From Streptomyces sp. NBC_00344 (GTDB lineage: Bacteria > Actinomycetota > Actinomycetes > Streptomycetales > Streptomycetaceae), in contig NZ_CP107996.1 in assembly GCF_036088315.1 (NCBI RefSeq), forward strand, positions 2,562,501 through 2,626,500: a stretch of 64,000 bases of DNA, in the 5' to 3' direction. The stretch's first letter is position 1, and the number at the start of each line of letters is the position of its first letter. Position numbers and translations under genes: made by a program. Shown here piece by piece: positions 44,903-52,792 of this stretch. The notes beneath the pieces are model-generated. The model was not told the origin of the DNA. It saw only the letters and a program-made list of their open reading frames with translations, and ran no database searches.

Positions 44903-46087
44903 CTAGGGGCGGGCCGGGAGCGTGTCCGGCAGGTCGCCCGGGGTGACCGACGACACAAGCGGCCGTTTCTCGATCGCCGCCGCCATCACCTCGGGGAACA
45001 GGTCCGGCGTGCAGGCGAAGGCCGGTGCGCCCAGGTCGGCGAGCGCCGCCGCGTGTTCGTGATCGTAGGAGGGCGCCCCCTCGTCGGAGAGCGCCAGCAG
45101 GGCAACGAACTGCACACCCGACGCCTTCATCGCCGCCACCCGCTTGAGCATCTCGTCCCGTATGCCTCCCTCGTAGAGGTCGCTGATCAGCACGACCACG
45201 GTGTCGGCGGGGCGGGATATCTGCGACTGGCAGTACGCGAGGGCCCGGTTGATGTCGGTGCCGCCGCCCAGCTGGGTGCCGAAGAGGACATCGACCGGGT
45301 CGTCGAGCTGTTCGGTCAGGTCGACGACCGCTGTGTCGAAGACGACCAGGCGGGTGGTGATGGAACGCATCGAGGCAAGCACCGCACCGAAGACGGAGGC
45401 GTACACGACCGAGGACGCCATCGAGCCCGACTGATCGATACAGAGGATGACGTCCTTCCTCACCGACTGCGATGCGCGGCCGTATCCGATGAGCCGTTCC
45501 GGGACGACGGTTCGGTACTGGGGGAGGTAGTTCTTCAGGTTGGCGCGGATGGTGCGGTCCCAGTCGATGTCCCGGTGGCGCGGTCTGCTGATTCTGGCCG
45601 ACCGGTCCAGCGCACCGGTGAGGGTGGCCCTGGTACGTGCCGCCAGCCGCTTCTCCAGGTCCTCGACCACCTTGCGGACCACGGCGCGGGCGGTCTCCCT
45701 GGTCGTCTCCGGCATCGCCTTGTTGAGTGAGAGGAGTGTGCCGACCAGGTGCACGTCCGCCTCGACGGCCTCCAGCATCTCCGGTTCCAGCAGCAGCGCC
45801 GACAGACCCAGCCGTTCGATGGCATCGCGCTGCATCACCTGGACGACGGAGCTGGGGAAGTAGGTACGGATGTCGCCGAGCCAGCGCGCCACGGAGGGTG
45901 CGGACGCACCCAGCCCGGCCGATCGGTCGCCGCCGCGGCCGGCCGGTCTGCGACCGTTCCCGTAGAGCCCGTCCAGCGCATGGTCCATCGCGGCGTCCTT
46001 CCCGCCCAGCGATACACCGGTGCCTTCCGCGGCTCCACCGCCGAGCACGAGCCGCCAGCGCCGCAGCCGTTCATCCATCGCGTTCAT
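44903..46087 (-). CDS. VWA-domain protein of a MoxR-associated module
   Basis: The 394-aa protein has an N-terminal helical region and a C-terminal von Willebrand factor A domain with an intact metal site: DQSGSMASS (DxSxS), a Thr in GGGTDINRAL and an Asp in LISDLYEGG. VWA proteins paired with MoxR ATPases act as metal-dependent adaptors, as in RavA-ViaA. Its start overlaps the DUF5682 stop by 4 bp (ATGA). It is the last gene of moxR-DUF5682-VWA. Confidence 0.92.
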   Translation of the reverse strand: MNAMDERLRRWRLVLGGGAAEGTGVSLGGKDAAMDHALDGLYGNGRRPAGRGGDRSAGLGASAPSVARWLGDIRTYFPSSVVQVMQRDAIERLGLSALLLEPEMLEAVEADVHLVGTLLSLNKAMPETTRETARAVVRKVVEDLEKRLAARTRATLTGALDRSARISRPRHRDIDWDRTIRANLKNYLPQYRTVVPERLIGYGRASQSVRKDVILCIDQSGSMASSVVYASVFGAVLASMRSITTRLVVFDTAVVDLTEQLDDPVDVLFGTQLGGGTDINRALAYCQSQISRPADTVVVLISDLYEGGIRDEMLKRVAAMKASGVQFVALLALSDEGAPSYDHEHAAALADLGAPAFACTPDLFPEVMAAAIEKRPLVSSVTPGDLPDTLPARP

Positions 46088-48585
46088 CCGCCCACCCCCA
46101 CCTGGCCGTTGTTGTCACAGCCGCCGCCGTCCGGGCTGCAGGTACCGCCGCCGAGCAGCAGTCGCAGCACCGGAAGCACCGCGTCCGCGCGTTCCTCGTC
46201 GAGCCCGGCGCCGAACCCCGGAGCCAATGGCTCCGGCCCACCGGCCTGCCTCGCGCCTGCCGGGCCCCGCCCGGCCAGCTCGCCGAGCGTGCGCCGCACC
46301 CCCGGTTCGTACGACGAGAAGGTGCGGCGCAGCAGTGGCAGTACGCCGGTGAACGCGTCGGCGGGCACACCGGCCAGCCAGCCGTCGATCAGCCCCAGCA
46401 GCCGCTCGTCGTGGACCAGCAGCATGCCTCCTCCGGAGGCTCCGCCGACGAAGCCCTCGATCCAGGCGGCCGCGTCGGCCGGCAGTGCACCCGCCGACAG
46501 GGCGAGCCCCATGAGCAGTGCGGCCTCCTCCTGCGCCAGCCGGCCGTCGTCGAGCAGCAGCCGTACGGCCCGTCCTCTGATCACTCCGGCGACGGTGTCC
46601 TGGCGGGCCAGTCTGTGCAGCACCTCGGCCCATCGGTCCCGCAGGCCGCCGGTGCCGGGCAGCAGGGCGACGGCGCCGTGGACGCCATCCAGACGGGCCC
46701 GCATCTCGGTCGCGCCGTCCGCGTCGAGGCCGGTGCAGGCAGCGGGCAGACCGACGCAGATCCGCTCGGCCAGACCGGCTGCCACCTCGGCCAGTGCGGC
46801 TGTGTCCGTGGACCGCACGTCTCCGTACCGCAGTGAACGGGCCAGCGCCGGAAGTGCCTGGGCGAGGTGGCCCACGTCGGTGTCGAGTGCCGCACGGTCG
46901 GCGAGGGCGCGCATCACCACCGGGAGCGCGTCGGGCAGGCCGGCCAGCAGACATTCCTCGGCGAGAGCGGTGACCGCCGTGAGGGCCGTGGCCGACACGG
47001 CCCCGGCCGCGGCCTTTGCGGTGGTCGCGGAGAGCACGGTCGTTCCCCACACGCCGGCCTCCGCCACCCGCACCGAGAGCTCGGGCTCCCAGCGCAGCCG
47101 CCAGCTCTCCCGGAAGGTGCCCAGGCTTCCCCGCCCGGCGGCCCGCTCCCCCCAGCCGACCCCTAGCAGCCGCAGCCGGTGCAGCAGCCGCGACCGTGCG
47201 GCGTCTGTCTCCTTGCGCAGATCGAGGTCCAACTCCTTCTCCAGCGCCTCCGGTTTGAGCCGAAGGGTGCGCTGCGCCCGGGTCAGGTCGCGCTGGAGCG
47301 GTACGGCCGGAGCGGTGTCGGGGACCTCCCCGAGCACATCACCCACCACGAGCTTCTCCCGGACCAGCGCCAGCGGCACATCGGAGCCGTCGCACATCAC
47401 GGCCCGTATCGCGTCGGTGGTCTCGGTCAGGCCCGGCAGCGGACGCCCCCGCATCGCGGCGAGGGTCCCGGCCAGCCTGACGGCTTCGATGACATGGGCC
47501 GACGAGACCATCCGGTCCTCGTCCCGCAGCAGCCGGGCGACCTTGGTCATCCAGCGTTCGACGGGGCGGTCGGCGGCGCCGAACAGATGCCCGTACCAGC
47601 CCGGTGAGTCGATCCCCGCGCCGTAACCGCTGTGCCGGGCGAGCCTGCGCTGGGTCCAGGGCACCCAGGTCATCTCGGCCCTGACTCTCGGCAGACCCTT
47701 CAGCAGGGCACGGTCAGCGGAAAGGGTGGTCTTCACAGTGAGCGCGGGAACATGCCAGGCGCCGCAGACCACAGCCACCTCGTCCCCGAACTCCTTCCGT
47801 GCGGACTGCAGTTGGAGTCGCATATGTGCCTCGCGCACCAGGTCGCGGGGGAATCCGCCGTCACCGTAGGTCTCCCGCAGCGCGCCCATGGCTTCGGCGA
47901 GTGCCGCGAACGGCGCGAATGCGCCCCCGCACCCGCCTCCGCCTCCGGTTCCGTTTCCGTTTCCGGGACCACGATGCTCGACGACGTCCTCCCACCAGCG
48001 CTCGGCGTCGTCGTAACCTGCGGTCTCGGCGAGCACGGCGATCGGGTCGAGCCGCACGGCGACGGCCGGCGGGGCCGCCCGTTCCGCGCCCTCCCCCTCC
48101 GGCGGCCCGTCTTCCTCCGCCCCGCTCCCCTCAGCCCTCTCAGTCCTCTTCTCCTCCGTCGCTTTTCCCTCTGCTTCCTCCACGGCCGTCGCCAGCGAGT
48201 GCGCCGCCGGCAGATCGATGAAGCGGACCGGCACTTCGTGCTGCTGCGCCCAGCGGATCGCCACCCACTCCGGTGAGAACTCGGCGAACGGCCAGAACGC
48301 CGCTCTGCCCGGGTCGTCCACGACATGGGCGAGCAGCGCGACCGGCGGACACATCGCCGGGTCCGCGGCCAGGGGGAGCAGCGCGTCACCCTCGGGCGGC
48401 CCCTCGATCAGCACGGCCCGCGGTCTCGCTGCGTCCAGCGCGGCCAGCACGGCACGGGCGGAACCCGGCCCGTGGTGGCGCACGCCGAGCAGCAGCGGAG
48501 CCGGGCGCGAAGGAGGCACTGCGGCTGCCGGTGCCGCGACTGCTTCCGGTGCCAGGAGTGCCTCCGGTGCTGCGGGCACTGTCAT
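46084..48585 (-). CDS. DUF5682-family protein
   Basis: A large 833-aa protein without membrane helices. The N-terminal domain begins LLLGVRHHGPGSARAVLAAL with VLIEGPPEGDALLPL, a pattern resembling the TraB/PrgY/EreA-type fold (paired His and Glu near the N-terminus), followed by VPVRFIDLPAAHSLA. The rest is Ala/Leu-rich and probably helical repeats. DUF5682 occurs almost only between MoxR and VWA genes. Here it overlaps both neighbours by 4 bp. A hydrolase-like or scaffold role is speculation. A Glu/Lys/Gly-rich insert lies near residues 135-170. Confidence 0.85.
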   Translation of the reverse strand: MTVPAAPEALLAPEAVAAPAAAVPPSRPAPLLLGVRHHGPGSARAVLAALDAARPRAVLIEGPPEGDALLPLAADPAMCPPVALLAHVVDDPGRAAFWPFAEFSPEWVAIRWAQQHEVPVRFIDLPAAHSLATAVEEAEGKATEEKRTERAEGSGAEEDGPPEGEGAERAAPPAVAVRLDPIAVLAETAGYDDAERWWEDVVEHRGPGNGNGTGGGGGCGGAFAPFAALAEAMGALRETYGDGGFPRDLVREAHMRLQLQSARKEFGDEVAVVCGAWHVPALTVKTTLSADRALLKGLPRVRAEMTWVPWTQRRLARHSGYGAGIDSPGWYGHLFGAADRPVERWMTKVARLLRDEDRMVSSAHVIEAVRLAGTLAAMRGRPLPGLTETTDAIRAVMCDGSDVPLALVREKLVVGDVLGEVPDTAPAVPLQRDLTRAQRTLRLKPEALEKELDLDLRKETDAARSRLLHRLRLLGVGWGERAAGRGSLGTFRESWRLRWEPELSVRVAEAGVWGTTVLSATTAKAAAGAVSATALTAVTALAEECLLAGLPDALPVVMRALADRAALDTDVGHLAQALPALARSLRYGDVRSTDTAALAEVAAGLAERICVGLPAACTGLDADGATEMRARLDGVHGAVALLPGTGGLRDRWAEVLHRLARQDTVAGVIRGRAVRLLLDDGRLAQEEAALLMGLALSAGALPADAAAWIEGFVGGASGGGMLLVHDERLLGLIDGWLAGVPADAFTGVLPLLRRTFSSYEPGVRRTLGELAGRGPAGARQAGGPEPLAPGFGAGLDEERADAVLPVLRLLLGGGTCSPDGGGCDNNGQVGVGG

Positions 48586-49685
48586 ACCGAGACCTCCCGG
48601 CAGGCGCGGTAGAAGTCCTTCCAGCCCTCGCGCTCCCGGACCACTGTCTCCAGGTATTCCTGCCAGATCACCCGGTCGGCCGCCGGATCGCGTACGACCG
48701 CACCGAGCAGCCCCGCTGCGACATCGGCCGGCCTGAGCACACCGTCCCCGAAGTGGGCGGCGAGAGCGAGGCCGTTGGTGACCACGGAAATGGCCTCGGC
48801 CGTGGACAGCGTCCCCGAAGGGGACTTGACCTTGGTACGCCCGTCACCGGTGACACCGCCGCGCAACTCCCGGAAGACGGTGACCACCCGGCGGATCTCG
48901 TCCATGCCTTCGGGAGCGGCCGGGATTTCGAGCGAGCGCCCTATCTGGTCGACTCGCCGGGAGACGATGTCCACCTCCGCTTCGGCCGAAGCGGGCAGCG
49001 GCAGAACGACCGTGTTGAACCGGCGGCGCAGTGCGCTGGAGAGCTCGTTGACCCCGCGGTCGCGGTCATTGGCGGTGGCGATGAGATTGAATCCCCGCAC
49101 GGCCTGGACCTCCTCGCCCAGCTCCGGAACCGGCAGGGTCTTCTCCGACAGGATCGTGATCAGGGTGTCCTGCACATCGGCCGGGATACGGGTCAGCTCC
49201 TCGACCCGTGCGGTCATACCGCCCGCCATGGCCCGCATGACGGGGCCGGCCACCAGGGCGTCCCTGCTCGGTCCATGAGCGAGCAACCTGGCGTAGTTCC
49301 AGCCGTATCTGATCGCCTCCTCCGGGGTGCCCGCGGTGCCCTGGACCAGCAGGGTCGAGTCCCCGCTCACTGCGGCGGCCAGGTGTTCCGACACCCAGGT
49401 CTTCGCGGTGCCGGGGACTCCCAGCAGCAGCAGCGCGCGATCGGTGGCGAGCGTGGTGACGGCGACCTCGACGATGCGGCGCGGACCGACGTACTTGGGG
49501 GTGATCACTGTGCCGTCCGGCAGCGTGCCGCCCTGCAGATAGACGGCCACGGCCCAGGGCGATAGCTTCCAGCGCTCGGGGCGCGGACGGTCGTCGGCGG
49601 CCGCGAGTGCCTTCAGCTCGTGGGCGAAAGCGTCTTCGGCATGCGGGCGCAGCACCTCGGATTCGGCGGTTTGGGACGCGGTCAT
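48582..49685 (-). CDS. MoxR-type AAA+ ATPase
   Basis: The 367-aa ATPase has Walker A GVPGTAKT at residues 89-96. In place of the usual MoxR Walker B it has ARVEELTRIPADVQDTLITI. Sensor 1 is NLIATANDRDRGVNELSSAL, followed by RRRFNTVVLPLP. MoxR ATPases remodel or mature protein complexes with VWA partners. ATG 49685 has TGGAGGGG upstream. It leads the three-gene operon and is divergent from the SWIM gene, with a shared DNA-damage-type promoter region between them. Confidence 0.93.
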   Translation of the reverse strand: MTASQTAESEVLRPHAEDAFAHELKALAAADDRPRPERWKLSPWAVAVYLQGGTLPDGTVITPKYVGPRRIVEVAVTTLATDRALLLLGVPGTAKTWVSEHLAAAVSGDSTLLVQGTAGTPEEAIRYGWNYARLLAHGPSRDALVAGPVMRAMAGGMTARVEELTRIPADVQDTLITILSEKTLPVPELGEEVQAVRGFNLIATANDRDRGVNELSSALRRRFNTVVLPLPASAEAEVDIVSRRVDQIGRSLEIPAAPEGMDEIRRVVTVFRELRGGVTGDGRTKVKSPSGTLSTAEAISVVTNGLALAAHFGDGVLRPADVAAGLLGAVVRDPAADRVIWQEYLETVVREREGWKDFYRACREVSV

Positions 49686-49722
49686 GGATCCCCCTCCAGA
49701 TCGTTCGACCCGATGTGGTTCC

Positions 49723-49745
49723 ACCGTGCACCATGGCACTGACAA
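49723..49745 (-). promoter_or_regulatory. PafBC/RecA-independent DNA-damage-type promoter of the moxR operon
   Basis: On the minus strand TTGTCAGTG (49745-49737), 8 bp, then CACGGT (49728-49723). The consensus is TTGTCRGTG-N8-TANNNT: the -35 element and spacing fit exactly, and the -10 has C for the first T. The leader would be about 30 nt. Confidence 0.6.
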
Positions 49746-49772
49746 TCGACTGTTTCCGCAGGTGGGAGCCGA

Positions 49773-49795
49773 TTGTCAGTGGTGGCGCCTAGCTT
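49773..49795 (+). promoter_or_regulatory. PafBC/RecA-independent DNA-damage-type promoter of the SWIM operon
   Basis: TTGTCAGTG (49773-49781), GTGGCGCC, TAGCTT (49790-49795): a full match to TTGTCRGTG-N8-TANNNT, the actinobacterial LexA/RecA-independent damage promoter. The -10 ends 7 bases before ATG 49803, so the mRNA should be leaderless. With the minus-strand copy it forms a 12-bp inverted repeat (49737-49748, 49770-49781). Confidence 0.8.
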
Positions 49796-49802
49796 GGTGG
49801 CC

Positions 49803-51188
49803 ATGCTGCGAAACAGCGGGGAACACCTCCCGGCGGCCCGGGGGCAGGGGGCGCGCTGGACTGCGGATCAGGTGCTGGCACTGGCTTCTGACGCAGCCTC
49901 ACGCAAGGCAGGAAGCAGGCTCGGGATGTCCGGGCCGTGGTCCGAAACGGGGTATGGGCGCGGCTCGGGGGCCGTCTGGGGAATGTGCAGGGGAAGCGGC
50001 AGCAGGCCGTATCAGACCGTCGTGGACACAACCGGCGTGGCGTACCGGTGCAGTTGCCCCAGCCGGAAGTTTCCGTGCAAGCACGCGCTGGGACTGCTGC
50101 TGCTCTGGGCGGCGGACGGGGTAAAGGAGGCCGAGTCACCGCCTGAGTGGGCCGGCGAGTGGATCGAGGCACGGTGGACCCGGCAGGGGCAGCCGCCGGA
50201 AGGGCGGTCCGGGCCCGATTCCGCACCGGCGGATCCGCGGGCGGCCCGGCGCAGAGCGGAGCGCAGAGCGGAGCGGGTCACCGCGGGGGCGGCGGAGCTC
50301 GAGCAGCGGCTCGATGATCTGCTGCGGGGCGGTCTGTCCGCGGCCGGGCAGGCGGGATACGGGCTGTGGGAGGAGACGGCGGCCCGGATGGTCGATGCGC
50401 AGGCGCCCGGACTCGCCGCCAGAGTGCGGGAGTTGGCCGCTATTCCGGCATCGGGAAGCGGCTGGCCGGGACGGCTGCTGGAAGAGTGCGCGATGCTGCA
50501 CCTGCTCGACCGGGCCTGGCTGGAGCGTGAGTTGCTGCCGGAGCCACTGGCCGCGACGGTCCGCATGCGCGTCGGGCTGCCGGCTCCGCCCGGGGGACCG
50601 GCCATCCGCGACCACTGGCTGGTGCTCTCCCAGTACGACACCTCCGACGGCAGGCTCACCACCCGGCGCATCTGGCTCCAGGGCCGCAGGTCGCGACACA
50701 CCGCGCAGCTGCTGGACTTCGGTGCGGCAGGACGGGCACCACAGGTCGCTCTGCCGGTCGGGCGGACGCTGGACGCCGAGCTCATGCCCTATCCGGGCGC
50801 GGGTCAGCTGCGGGCCGCGCTGGGCGAGCAGTTCGGCGTTCCGGCAGCACCGGACAGCCCGCCGCGGGGCGTGACCACCGCCGCCGCCCTCTCCCTGTAC
50901 GGCCGCGCCCTGCGGGACGATCCCTGGCTGAACACCTGGCCGGTGACCCTGGGTTCTGTCATACCGGTCCCCGGTACGGCGGACGGTACCGGCTGGCAAC
51001 TGGCTGATGCCGAGGGACAGTGCGCGCTGCCGGTGACGTCGGGCGCGGCGGCGAAGTCCGGGCTGTGGAGGCTCACCGCGCTCTCCGGCGGGGGGCCGGT
51101 CACGGTCTTCGGCGAGTGCGGACACCGCGGCTTCGTCCCGCTGACGGCATGGGCGCCCGGCGACCGCGACGCCGTACCGCTCAGCTGA
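49803..51188 (+). CDS. SWIM zinc-finger family protein
   Basis: The 461-aa protein carries a SWIM zinc finger near its N-terminus: YRCSCPSRKFPCKHALGLLL, with Cys83, Cys85, Cys92 and His94. SWIM fingers bind DNA or proteins. The following 370 residues contain an Arg-rich segment (RAARRRAERRAERV) and a C-terminal beta-rich part (WLVLSQYDTSDGRLTTRRIW). ATG 49803 coincides with the predicted transcription start; GTG 49797 is in frame but would lie before it. It is co-transcribed with DUF5691, 35 bp downstream, and divergent from moxR. Confidence 0.9.
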   Translation: MLRNSGEHLPAARGQGARWTADQVLALASDAASRKAGSRLGMSGPWSETGYGRGSGAVWGMCRGSGSRPYQTVVDTTGVAYRCSCPSRKFPCKHALGLLLLWAADGVKEAESPPEWAGEWIEARWTRQGQPPEGRSGPDSAPADPRAARRRAERRAERVTAGAAELEQRLDDLLRGGLSAAGQAGYGLWEETAARMVDAQAPGLAARVRELAAIPASGSGWPGRLLEECAMLHLLDRAWLERELLPEPLAATVRMRVGLPAPPGGPAIRDHWLVLSQYDTSDGRLTTRRIWLQGRRSRHTAQLLDFGAAGRAPQVALPVGRTLDAELMPYPGAGQLRAALGEQFGVPAAPDSPPRGVTTAAALSLYGRALRDDPWLNTWPVTLGSVIPVPGTADGTGWQLADAEGQCALPVTSGAAAKSGLWRLTALSGGGPVTVFGECGHRGFVPLTAWAPGDRDAVPLS

Positions 51189-51223
51189 ACCGCCACCGCA
51201 CACAACCGTCCATGGAGGGACCG

Positions 51224-52792
51224 ATGAGCGCCACCACCGCCTGGGAAGAACTCGTCACATCGGCTCTGCTCGGCACCGACCGCCGCCCACCGCGGTACGG
51301 CACACCGGCGCTGCTGGACTCCGCCGCGCTGCACACCGTGCGGCGCAGAGCGGGCCTGCTGCCCGCGCCGGCCGCCGCACGGCCCGCCGCCGCTCCGCAC
51401 GACCACCGGCCCGAGCCGCCGGCGGCCGCCCGGCGCCGGCTGGCCCAGCTGCTCGCCGACCGGGCAGGGCCCGCCGGCTCCGGCGGGCGCCGGGGTGCCA
51501 CGCCCGATCTCACGGAACTGTTGCCCCAGTGGCTCACCACAGCGGGGCAGCTCGGTTACCGGGCACCCGCCTCACTCCTCGACGCGCTGCTGGACGCGGC
51601 GCGGGCGCGCACGGATCTGCGGTCGCAGGCTCTCGCCTTCGCCGGTCCCCGGGGGCTCTGGCTGGCCGGACTGAACCCGGAGTGGAAGTTCGCGCTGCGC
51701 GGTACGGCGGGCGCAGCCGTGCTGCCTTCGACCGCGGATGCCGGAGCCGTCCGCCGGCTCTGGGAGGAGGGCTTGTTCGCCGAGCGGGTCGCTCTGCTCG
51801 GCGCACTGCGGTCCGAGCTGCCGGGCGCCGGGCTCGATCTGCTCGCCACGACCTGGCAGGCCGAGCGGGCCGAGGACCGGTTGATGTTCCTGGACTCCCT
51901 GCGCACCGGACTCACGGACGCGGACGAGCCGTTCCTGGAACAGGCCCTGGCCGACCGCAGCCGCAATGTCCGCGCCACGGCCGCGGAACTGCTCTCCGCG
52001 CTGCCCCGGTCAGCCCTCGCGGGCCGGATGGCGGTTCGGGCGATGACCTGCGTCGGCCTCGACCGCACCGATCACCGTGCCCGGATCACGGTCGAGGCAC
52101 CGCACGAATGCGACGCGGCGATGCAACGCGACGGCGTTCCGCCGGTTCCGCCGGCGGGCCGCGGTGAGCGTTCCTGGTGGCTGGGACACGTGGTGGAGGC
52201 CGCGCCGCTCACCGTGTGGTCCGGCGTGCTGGGTGGCCGTACGCCGCAGCAGATCGTCGGACTTCCGGTGACCGACGGCTGGGAGGAGGAGCTGCACGCC
52301 GCGTGGTGCCGGGCCGCGGTGCGGCAGGGCGACGCCGCCTGGTCCCGCGCGCTGCTGGCGGGCCCGGGTACTACCTCGCTCGCCGAACGCGCGCGACTGC
52401 TGGCAACGCTGCCGGACGGCGAGCGGGCAGGCTCGGTGGCCGTCTTCGTCGCAGGTCACGGCTTGTCCGAGGCGTTCCAGCTGCTGTCCGTCTGTGAGGT
52501 CCCCTGGGCCGAACCGCTGGGCCGGGCGGTGGTGGACGCCCTCGAGATAGCCCGGGACGCCGGAAGCTACCCCTGGAGCTTCAGCGGGGTGATGGGGCTG
52601 GCCGAACGCTGTCTGGATCCGGCGGAGGCACGGCGGCTCGAGGTCCTCACGGCGATACCGGACGAGGCGGAAGGAGGGGCCCCCGGAGCCGGCGGTTACT
52701 GGTCGGAGGCGTTTCAGCGGCTGGTGTCCACGTTGCGGCTGCGGGCGGCGATGCGGGAGGAGCTGGCGGGGGCGGCGCAGACGGGGCCATAG
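51224..52792 (+). CDS. DUF5691-family protein
   Basis: A 522-aa soluble, Leu/Ala/Arg-rich helical protein. WEELVTSALLGTDRRPPRYG is the conserved start. The segment FLEQALADRSRNVRATAAEL looks like a HEAT-type repeat, and further helical repeats follow. DUF5691 proteins occur with SWIM, MoxR and VWA genes. ATG 51224 has GGAGGGA at the right distance. A scaffold binding role is inference. No catalytic motif is seen. Confidence 0.85.
   Translation: MSATTAWEELVTSALLGTDRRPPRYGTPALLDSAALHTVRRRAGLLPAPAAARPAAAPHDHRPEPPAAARRRLAQLLADRAGPAGSGGRRGATPDLTELLPQWLTTAGQLGYRAPASLLDALLDAARARTDLRSQALAFAGPRGLWLAGLNPEWKFALRGTAGAAVLPSTADAGAVRRLWEEGLFAERVALLGALRSELPGAGLDLLATTWQAERAEDRLMFLDSLRTGLTDADEPFLEQALADRSRNVRATAAELLSALPRSALAGRMAVRAMTCVGLDRTDHRARITVEAPHECDAAMQRDGVPPVPPAGRGERSWWLGHVVEAAPLTVWSGVLGGRTPQQIVGLPVTDGWEEELHAAWCRAAVRQGDAAWSRALLAGPGTTSLAERARLLATLPDGERAGSVAVFVAGHGLSEAFQLLSVCEVPWAEPLGRAVVDALEIARDAGSYPWSFSGVMGLAERCLDPAEARRLEVLTAIPDEAEGGAPGAGGYWSEAFQRLVSTLRLRAAMREELAGAAQTGP

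Follow-up and report, generated by a model that had tools for sequence, protein, structure and literature searches.

The window analysed here is a stretch of 64,000 nucleotides from Streptomyces sp. NBC_00344 (assembly GCF_036088315.1, contig NZ_CP107996.1, positions 2,562,501 to 2,626,500), and its positions 44,903 to 52,792 are occupied by five genes in two divergent units, between which lie two back-to-back promoter elements of the RecA-NDp/PafBC type. The minus-strand unit consists of a MoxR/AAA_5 gene (48582-49685, 367 amino acids, YehL-like; Pfam AAA_5, E 2.1e-36), a DUF5682 gene (46084-48585, 833 amino acids, YehM-like; PF18934, E 1.3e-295) and a VWA_CoxE gene (44903-46087, 394 amino acids, YehP-like; PF05762, E 1.3e-59). 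The plus-strand unit is formed by a SWIM zinc-finger gene (49803-51188, 461 amino acids; PF04434, E 4.2e-06) and a DUF5691 gene (51224-52792, 522 amino acids; PF18944, E 9.2e-165 for the ATG-started protein). An earlier sequence-only reading had described two tight units sharing one control region, and its coordinates, the two 4-bp ATGA overlaps and the 35-bp gap were all reproduced, as was the common control region between MoxR and SWIM. The automatically assigned TTG starts at 49745 (MoxR) and 49773 (SWIM) coincide with promoter elements; the ATG codons at 49685 and 49803 are the likely starts, which places the divergent units 117 bp apart.

Towards SWIM, the control region contains the element TTGTCAGTG-N8-TAGCTT (49773-49795, plus strand), and towards MoxR the element TTGTCAGTG-N8-CACGGT (49723-49745, minus strand). 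Compared with the regulon motif TTGTCRGTG-N8-TANNNT, the SWIM-side element is exact and the MoxR-side element carries a C for the first T of the -10 box. Together, both elements form a perfect 12-bp inverted repeat, CACTGACAATCG/CGATTGTCAGTG (49737-49781, with arms at 49737-49748 and 49770-49781), each arm of which is the 5' part of one promoter. In Streptomyces loci in which the two genes lie 600 to 700 bp apart (for instance, those labelled L080, L084 and L085), SWIM and MoxR each retain their own element, which argues for two promoters rather than one palindromic operator. A promoter of this type has been described for recA of S. rimosus (TTGTCAGTGGC-N6-TAGggT), and its relatives in S. coelicolor mark 67 genes, 13 to 20 of which function in DNA repair, according to the available part of that report (PMC2375139). 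The RecA-NDp motif is described as being used by PafBC, which is activated by single-stranded DNA (PMC6789036, PMC11804915, both available in part), and pafA, pafB and pafC are all encoded in this genome.

The conservation of the two elements was assessed in 45 Streptomyces loci, namely 44 fetched from other genomes and the window. The strict SWIM-side motif is present in 41 of them (it is missing in L072, L074, L078 and L096), the MoxR-side TTGTCAGTG in 43 (missing in L064 and L101), and at least one of the two in all 45. Variants that differ only in the first base account for most of these cases, namely CTGTCAGTG in L072, L074 and L078, ATGTCAGTG in L064 and GTGTCAGTG in L101; if any first base is allowed, the SWIM side is found in 44 and the MoxR side in 45 of the 45 loci. 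The 9-mer TTGTCRGTG occurs 89 times on both strands of the 44 fetched loci (716 kb), 82 times at these promoters and seven times elsewhere. Two crude LexA-box patterns did not match the divergent regions of the 43 loci searched for them (L074 and L098 were left out of the 45). The promoter evidence for both units is strong but computational, and since both units start from RecA-NDp-type promoters, all five genes would be expected to rise together.

Across the whole 7.06-Mb genome, the strict motif has 15 sites, against none for the reversed control, and the genes next to them include repair-type genes, namely recA, uvrB, ruvC (these three recognised by eye), a UvrD-type helicase, a RecD2-HHH protein and MgsA/RarA. 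Further sites precede the SWIM gene, a sigma factor with a SnoaL domain, an ABC permease, ribosomal protein S6, an HSP90-like ATPase, PhoH, a protein with a WGR domain plus a beta-propeller and two genes of unknown kind. If the first -10 base is C, there are ten sites (reversed: none), among them those in front of MoxR and of the genes for DNA polymerases I and IV, an Lhr-type helicase and the A subunit of a gyrase/topoisomerase IV; no repair gene lies behind the other five sites. Every one of the 61 genomes examined in the genus has strict sites, 11 to 44 of them, and no genome has more than one reversed match. Two observations on individual sites of the own genome may be added. At L033, the WGR plus beta-propeller gene and uvrB point away from each other, both with a separate strict RecA-NDp site; proteins with a WGR domain are also found alongside the yeh operon of E. 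coli and certain paralogous operons of Streptomyces. At G000:C1:2534897 (L025), a strict site lies 38 bp before the start of the sigma-70-family factor with the SnoaL domain; this factor might act as a second layer of the damage response.

Within the genus, 58 of the 61 genomes encode DUF5682, and 56 carry its main type (a score of 799 bits or more). Other genomes contribute 55 main-type loci, of which 44 were fetched and 11 were left out, and the divergent five-gene order is identical in 44 of these 44. In a class sample of 246 genomes, DUF5682 was detected in 61, in 59 of them above its cut-off. In a phylum sample of 198 genomes, DUF5682 is present in 17 and DUF5691 was matched in 19, 16 of which are above its cut-off. 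All 16 belong to the 17 genomes with DUF5682, and in each of these the two genes share a contig and lie less than 3.4 kb apart; the three matches below the cut-off stem from genomes without DUF5682, and a single DUF5682 genome (G182) lacks DUF5691. A further set, in the following called the named loci, comprises the best 80 of 585 confirmed DUF5682 matches, 67 of which have enough flanking sequence to look for all five families. As these loci were drawn via DUF5682, they show what accompanies this family and say nothing on how frequently the others occur by themselves. All five families are encoded in 62 of the 67; L211, L215, L255, L261 and L264 are incomplete. A one-strand row, SWIM>DUF5691>MoxR>DUF5682>VWA, is found in 52 of these 62 loci and the divergent form, which occurs in Streptomycetaceae, in nine. 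The complete loci belong to what we take to be the phyla Actinomycetota, Cyanobacteriota, Pseudomonadota, Bacteroidota, Verrucomicrobiota, Planctomycetota and Chloroflexota. The prospect that the five families might mostly occur apart in other genomes, by which the sequence-only reading would have fallen, is thus not borne out for loci that carry DUF5682, and the five genes are an old and real set, not a chance neighbourhood.

The strict nine-base form of the promoter is rare outside Streptomyces. A shorter core, TGTC-N12-TANNNT, was picked after the loci of the class had been viewed and was then tested on the largely different named set. Among 26 class loci of other genera, the core precedes SWIM in 14, or in 19 if C is allowed ([T/C]ANNNT), against none for the reversed core and 0.5% of random windows; four more core sites are present in L167, L168, L171 and L182, in which the SWIM alignment started late. 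Seven loci from other classes of the phylum have the core in two cases, or three with C. In the named set, the core with C allowed is found in 11 of 11 Streptomycetaceae loci (random windows 2.2%), in 25 of 46 loci of other Actinomycetota (0.8%) and in one of 12 loci of other phyla (0.5%). Paralogous operons of this and other genera carry the strict motif upstream in nine of 22 cases. In L113, L114 and L117, WGR-DUF4132 operons that also encode MoxR, DUF5682 and VWA have a strict RecA-NDp site 85 to 89 bp before the first gene. Streptomyces paralogous operons of other types are led by long unassigned genes. In a further paralogous type, VWA-MoxR operons (L115, L116 and L193), the first gene encodes an unassigned protein of roughly 670 amino acids, and a strict RecA-NDp site lies upstream. 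Overall, the computational evidence for a DNA-damage-type control of the module is good in Streptomyces and in roughly one half of the loci examined from other Actinomycetota.

The encoded proteins combine a predicted motor with several conserved partners. The MoxR ATPase contains a Walker A motif (GVPGTAK), the sensor ATAN and an arginine finger (ALRRRF), and the VWA protein has all three MIDAS-type motifs, DQSGS, GGGTD and LISD; a PDB sequence search with the latter protein gave no match up to E 0.1. A MoxR protein with ATPase motifs and a VWA protein with MIDAS motifs are hence encoded together, with the DUF5682 gene between them, and as the parts also co-occur, the notion of a self-contained NTP-driven set, already put forward from the sequence alone, can be retained. 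The Walker B motif usually reads DE; here, it reads EE in 15 of 15 aligned sequences, which holds for the module's own MoxR family as well as for two paralogues and E. coli YehL. In 50 aligned DUF5682 sequences, GxRHHG, E61, SPEW and CGAxH are invariant. Searches of PDB sequences with the DUF5682 profile returned nothing up to E 1, and a profile of its N-terminal part had a best E of 0.5. A TraB/TIKI-like fold of the DUF5682 N-terminus, suggested by eye and by weak matches of two of the 50 members to TraB/PrgY/GumN (PF01963, best E 0.038), was not confirmed by an hhalign comparison with a narrow YbaP (TraB) profile (probability 0.2%, no better than two unrelated controls). The TraB and ChaN families were each matched in one of the 198 genomes of the phylum sample.

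DUF5691 is probably a HEAT-repeat alpha-solenoid, judging from weak matches among 33 relatives to HEAT_2 (16 of them) and to HEAT (12 of them), with 6e-05 as the best E; a weak match to FliG in a PDB search (E 0.00079) is consistent with helical repeats. The SWIM motif CxCPSR-x2-PCxH is kept in 37 of 37 aligned sequences, and three finger-less Streptomyces loci lie outside that alignment. In these loci (L074, L098 and L099, of the 44), the zinc-finger part is gone and the promoter and the in-frame C-terminal part are retained; in L097, the finger is divergent. The best match of the SWIM profile among PDB sequences, at E 0.91, is not convincing. SWIM and DUF5691 share a single open frame in six loci (L204, L230, L248, L251, L263 and L270), and Pfam confirmed both domains in the two that were checked, L204 and L230. 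These single-frame fusions point to a physical partnership of SWIM and DUF5691.

The sequence-only reading held that no function is established for these genes, which is nearly right; however, a phenotype has been published for what is probably the S. coelicolor orthologue of DUF5682, SCO4804 (PMC8120823, available in part). The module is flanked by sucC and sucD on the left and by an alpha/beta hydrolase gene on the right, and sucC lies within the fetched stretch in 40 of the 44 Streptomyces loci. In S. coelicolor, SCO4808 is a subunit of succinyl-CoA synthase (PMC8981147, available in part), so that a succinyl-CoA synthase gene is close by in both species. SCO4804 consists of 815 amino acids, with 103 bp of non-coding DNA before and 171 bp after its gene, and only DUF5682 has that size within the module. 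Most loci show 4-bp overlaps, and DUF5682 proteins of 814 to 815 amino acids with similar gaps exist (L066 and L268). SCO4804 is taken to be the DUF5682 protein because length, gaps and the nearness to SCO4808 agree. According to the published account, a transposon in sco4804, which is polar on sco4805, lowers the topA transcript to about 70% and the TopA protein to about 50%, and overexpression of sco4804 enhances topA promoter activity and briefly raises the topA and gyrB transcripts. Expression of sco4804 and the adjacent genes increases about eightfold upon depletion of TopA (topoisomerase I), and SCO4804, once purified, binds DNA irrespective of its sequence (PMC8120823). Depletion of TopA also induces recA, recX and lexA, which was interpreted there as LexA-dependent (PMC6637917, available in part). 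As an explanation of the co-induction of the module, a damage-type promoter would be no less simple than a supercoiling sensor.

Taken together, we consider it slightly more probable than its negation that the five-gene set is an AAA+ remodelling machine which is induced by DNA damage and serves chromosome maintenance. Genome maintenance had been one of the two roles proposed by the sequence-only reading, and the two conserved RecA-NDp/PafBC-type promoters are independent evidence in its favour. When single-stranded DNA accumulates, PafBC, a LexA-independent activator of recA and repair genes, would turn on all five genes. SWIM and the HEAT-repeat protein DUF5691 might then act as a single adaptor that docks on DNA or on a DNA-bound complex, a step weakened by the finger-less loci, and the MoxR ring, with VWA as a plug or co-chaperone, would spend ATP on taking a client apart or folding it anew. 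DUF5682, whose gene lies between those of MoxR and VWA, may couple the motor to the client and may touch DNA itself. If the machine were lost or overproduced, the expression of topoisomerase and gyrase would be disturbed as an indirect consequence, in line with what has been reported for SCO4804. A bolder version, in which the SWIM-HEAT adaptor of a damage-response machine common to several phyla brings the MoxR-VWA motor to DNA-trapped proteins and DUF5682 processes or releases them, possibly through its invariant His, Glu and Arg residues, is quite unlikely in its entirety; candidate clients would include complexes of topoisomerase or gyrase and further kinds of DNA-protein crosslinks. If true, it would explain the co-regulation with repair genes as well as the effect of SCO4804 on topA and gyrB.

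Several points speak against a chromosome-maintenance machine under damage control. The loss of the finger in three Streptomyces loci argues against the finger being the indispensable dock, and the earlier suggestion that this finger could bind DNA is weakened as well. The core promoter was not found in 21 of the 46 named Actinomycetota loci, among which are four of five Arthrobacter, both Nocardioides and all three Lentzea loci, nor in 11 of 12 loci of other phyla, so that the damage link is not universal, and 13 of the 22 paralogous operons have no strict motif in the stretch searched. We infer PafBC dependence of this locus from the motif, and an initial search suggested that the PafBC motif of M. 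smegmatis is not conserved in S. venezuelae (PMC9380542). That study left a RecA-independent damage regulon open for Streptomyces, for which the strict sites in all 61 genomes indicate a genus-wide motif signature. The link to SCO4804 is built on length, gaps and the nearness to SCO4808, not on sequence; its DNA binding is abolished by the competitor poly(dIdC), and the same source reports no interaction with TopA and unchanged supercoiling (PMC8120823). Finally, a client and a catalytic activity of the machine, as well as the chromosome as its target, are putative.

An unlikely, though best-placed, alternative is that the module is a chaperone for metal-cofactor insertion or complex assembly of the NorQ-NorD/CoxD-CoxE type, in which MoxR-VWA matures one dedicated enzyme, DUF5682 and SWIM serve as handling factors and the damage promoter merely mirrors stress on that enzyme. 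The VWA protein does belong to the CoxE family, and solved relatives of the MoxR protein include NorQ, though midasin scores higher. NorQ/NorD forms a hexameric ring with a VWA plug in its pore and inserts FeB in an ATP-dependent manner (PMC9976466, available in part), which provides a mechanistic precedent. However, the other genes behind this promoter mostly serve DNA repair, and the neighbouring succinyl-CoA ligase lies within the stretch in only 10 of 106 other loci, all from Streptomycetaceae; no systematic search for a constant target gene was made. Very unlikely is a transcription or supercoiling regulator, by which DUF5682 (SCO4804) and its partners would activate the topA and gyrase promoters: the altered topA promoter activity and gyrB transcript in the transposon mutant and upon overexpression fit this idea, but binding of SCO4804 to DNA is not specific and its effect was judged indirect in the available part of the study (PMC8120823). 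Moreover, it would be unusual for a regulator to consist of a five-gene AAA+ set, and DNA stress could be the primary event from which the topA effect follows.

Least probable is the second role proposed from the sequence alone, defence, considered here as a system for phage defence or conflict akin to the MoxR-vWA ternary systems (Kaur et al. 2020): the chaperone pair is the same, and one to four DUF5682-family matches (some maybe gene pieces) occur per positive genome of the genus, including accessory paralogous operons, but the module is near-universal and syntenic in the genus and rare on phages and plasmids, its bpMoxR score is 22.4 bits against a cut-off of 27, and Pfam recognised no effector domain. 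DUF5682 was detected in one of 50,697 phage records (26% identity) and in 17 of 72,556 plasmids, and among viral contigs, 29 pattern matches yielded no confirmed relative. PADLOC gave no match below E 0.01, with two IetA matches at 0.017 and 0.027. These searches removed a defence island as the leading idea.

Among known systems, the MoxR-vWA ternary conflict systems (PMC7159879) share the MoxR plus vWA core with the module; however, no VMAP, iSTAND, FtsH, beta-propeller or effector was recognised by Pfam in the five proteins, and the main text of that study does not mention SWIM, DUF5682, DUF5691 or Yeh. The pairing with RavA-ViaA, drawn in the sequence-only reading, holds as a functional analogy between MoxR plus VWA partners but not as kinship, as the VWA protein reaches 23.9 bits against a ViaA cut-off of 500 and the nearest named kin are YehL, YehM, YehP and YehQ. 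NorQ-NorD likewise combines a MoxR ATPase with a VWA protein bearing MIDAS motifs, whereas the module described here has three extra conserved partners, a DNA-repair-type promoter and no known enzyme to mature. In E. coli K-12, yehL (AAA_5), yehM (DUF5682), yehP (VWA_CoxE) and yehQ (SWIM) lie in one row and constitute a distant homologue and the nearest named relative, with which the module shares the EE at Walker B and the joint presence of AAA_5, DUF5682, VWA_CoxE and SWIM. In contrast to the module, the E. coli control has no DUF5691 match and a different gene order, and yehI (DUF4132) and yehF (WGR) upstream of yehL resemble Streptomyces paralogous operons instead; the operons in L113, L114 and L117 resemble the yehI-yehL-yehM-yehP set. 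The yeh genes are reported among the deletions of the genome-reduced strain DGF-298, and a literature search on the yeh genes, DUF5682, DUF5691 and MoxR turned up no functional paper on this set. With the RecA-NDp/PafBC regulon, the module shares the motif and its spacing, the presence of PafBC and repair genes as co-targets, although the available parts of the published accounts do not name the five-gene set as a member. What is new is the control region with its two back-to-back RecA-NDp/PafBC-type promoters. Through it, genes that were until now mostly a set of DUFs, comprising two DUF families and distantly related to the E. coli yeh operon, would be placed in the actinobacterial DNA damage response and tied to a published topoisomerase phenotype.

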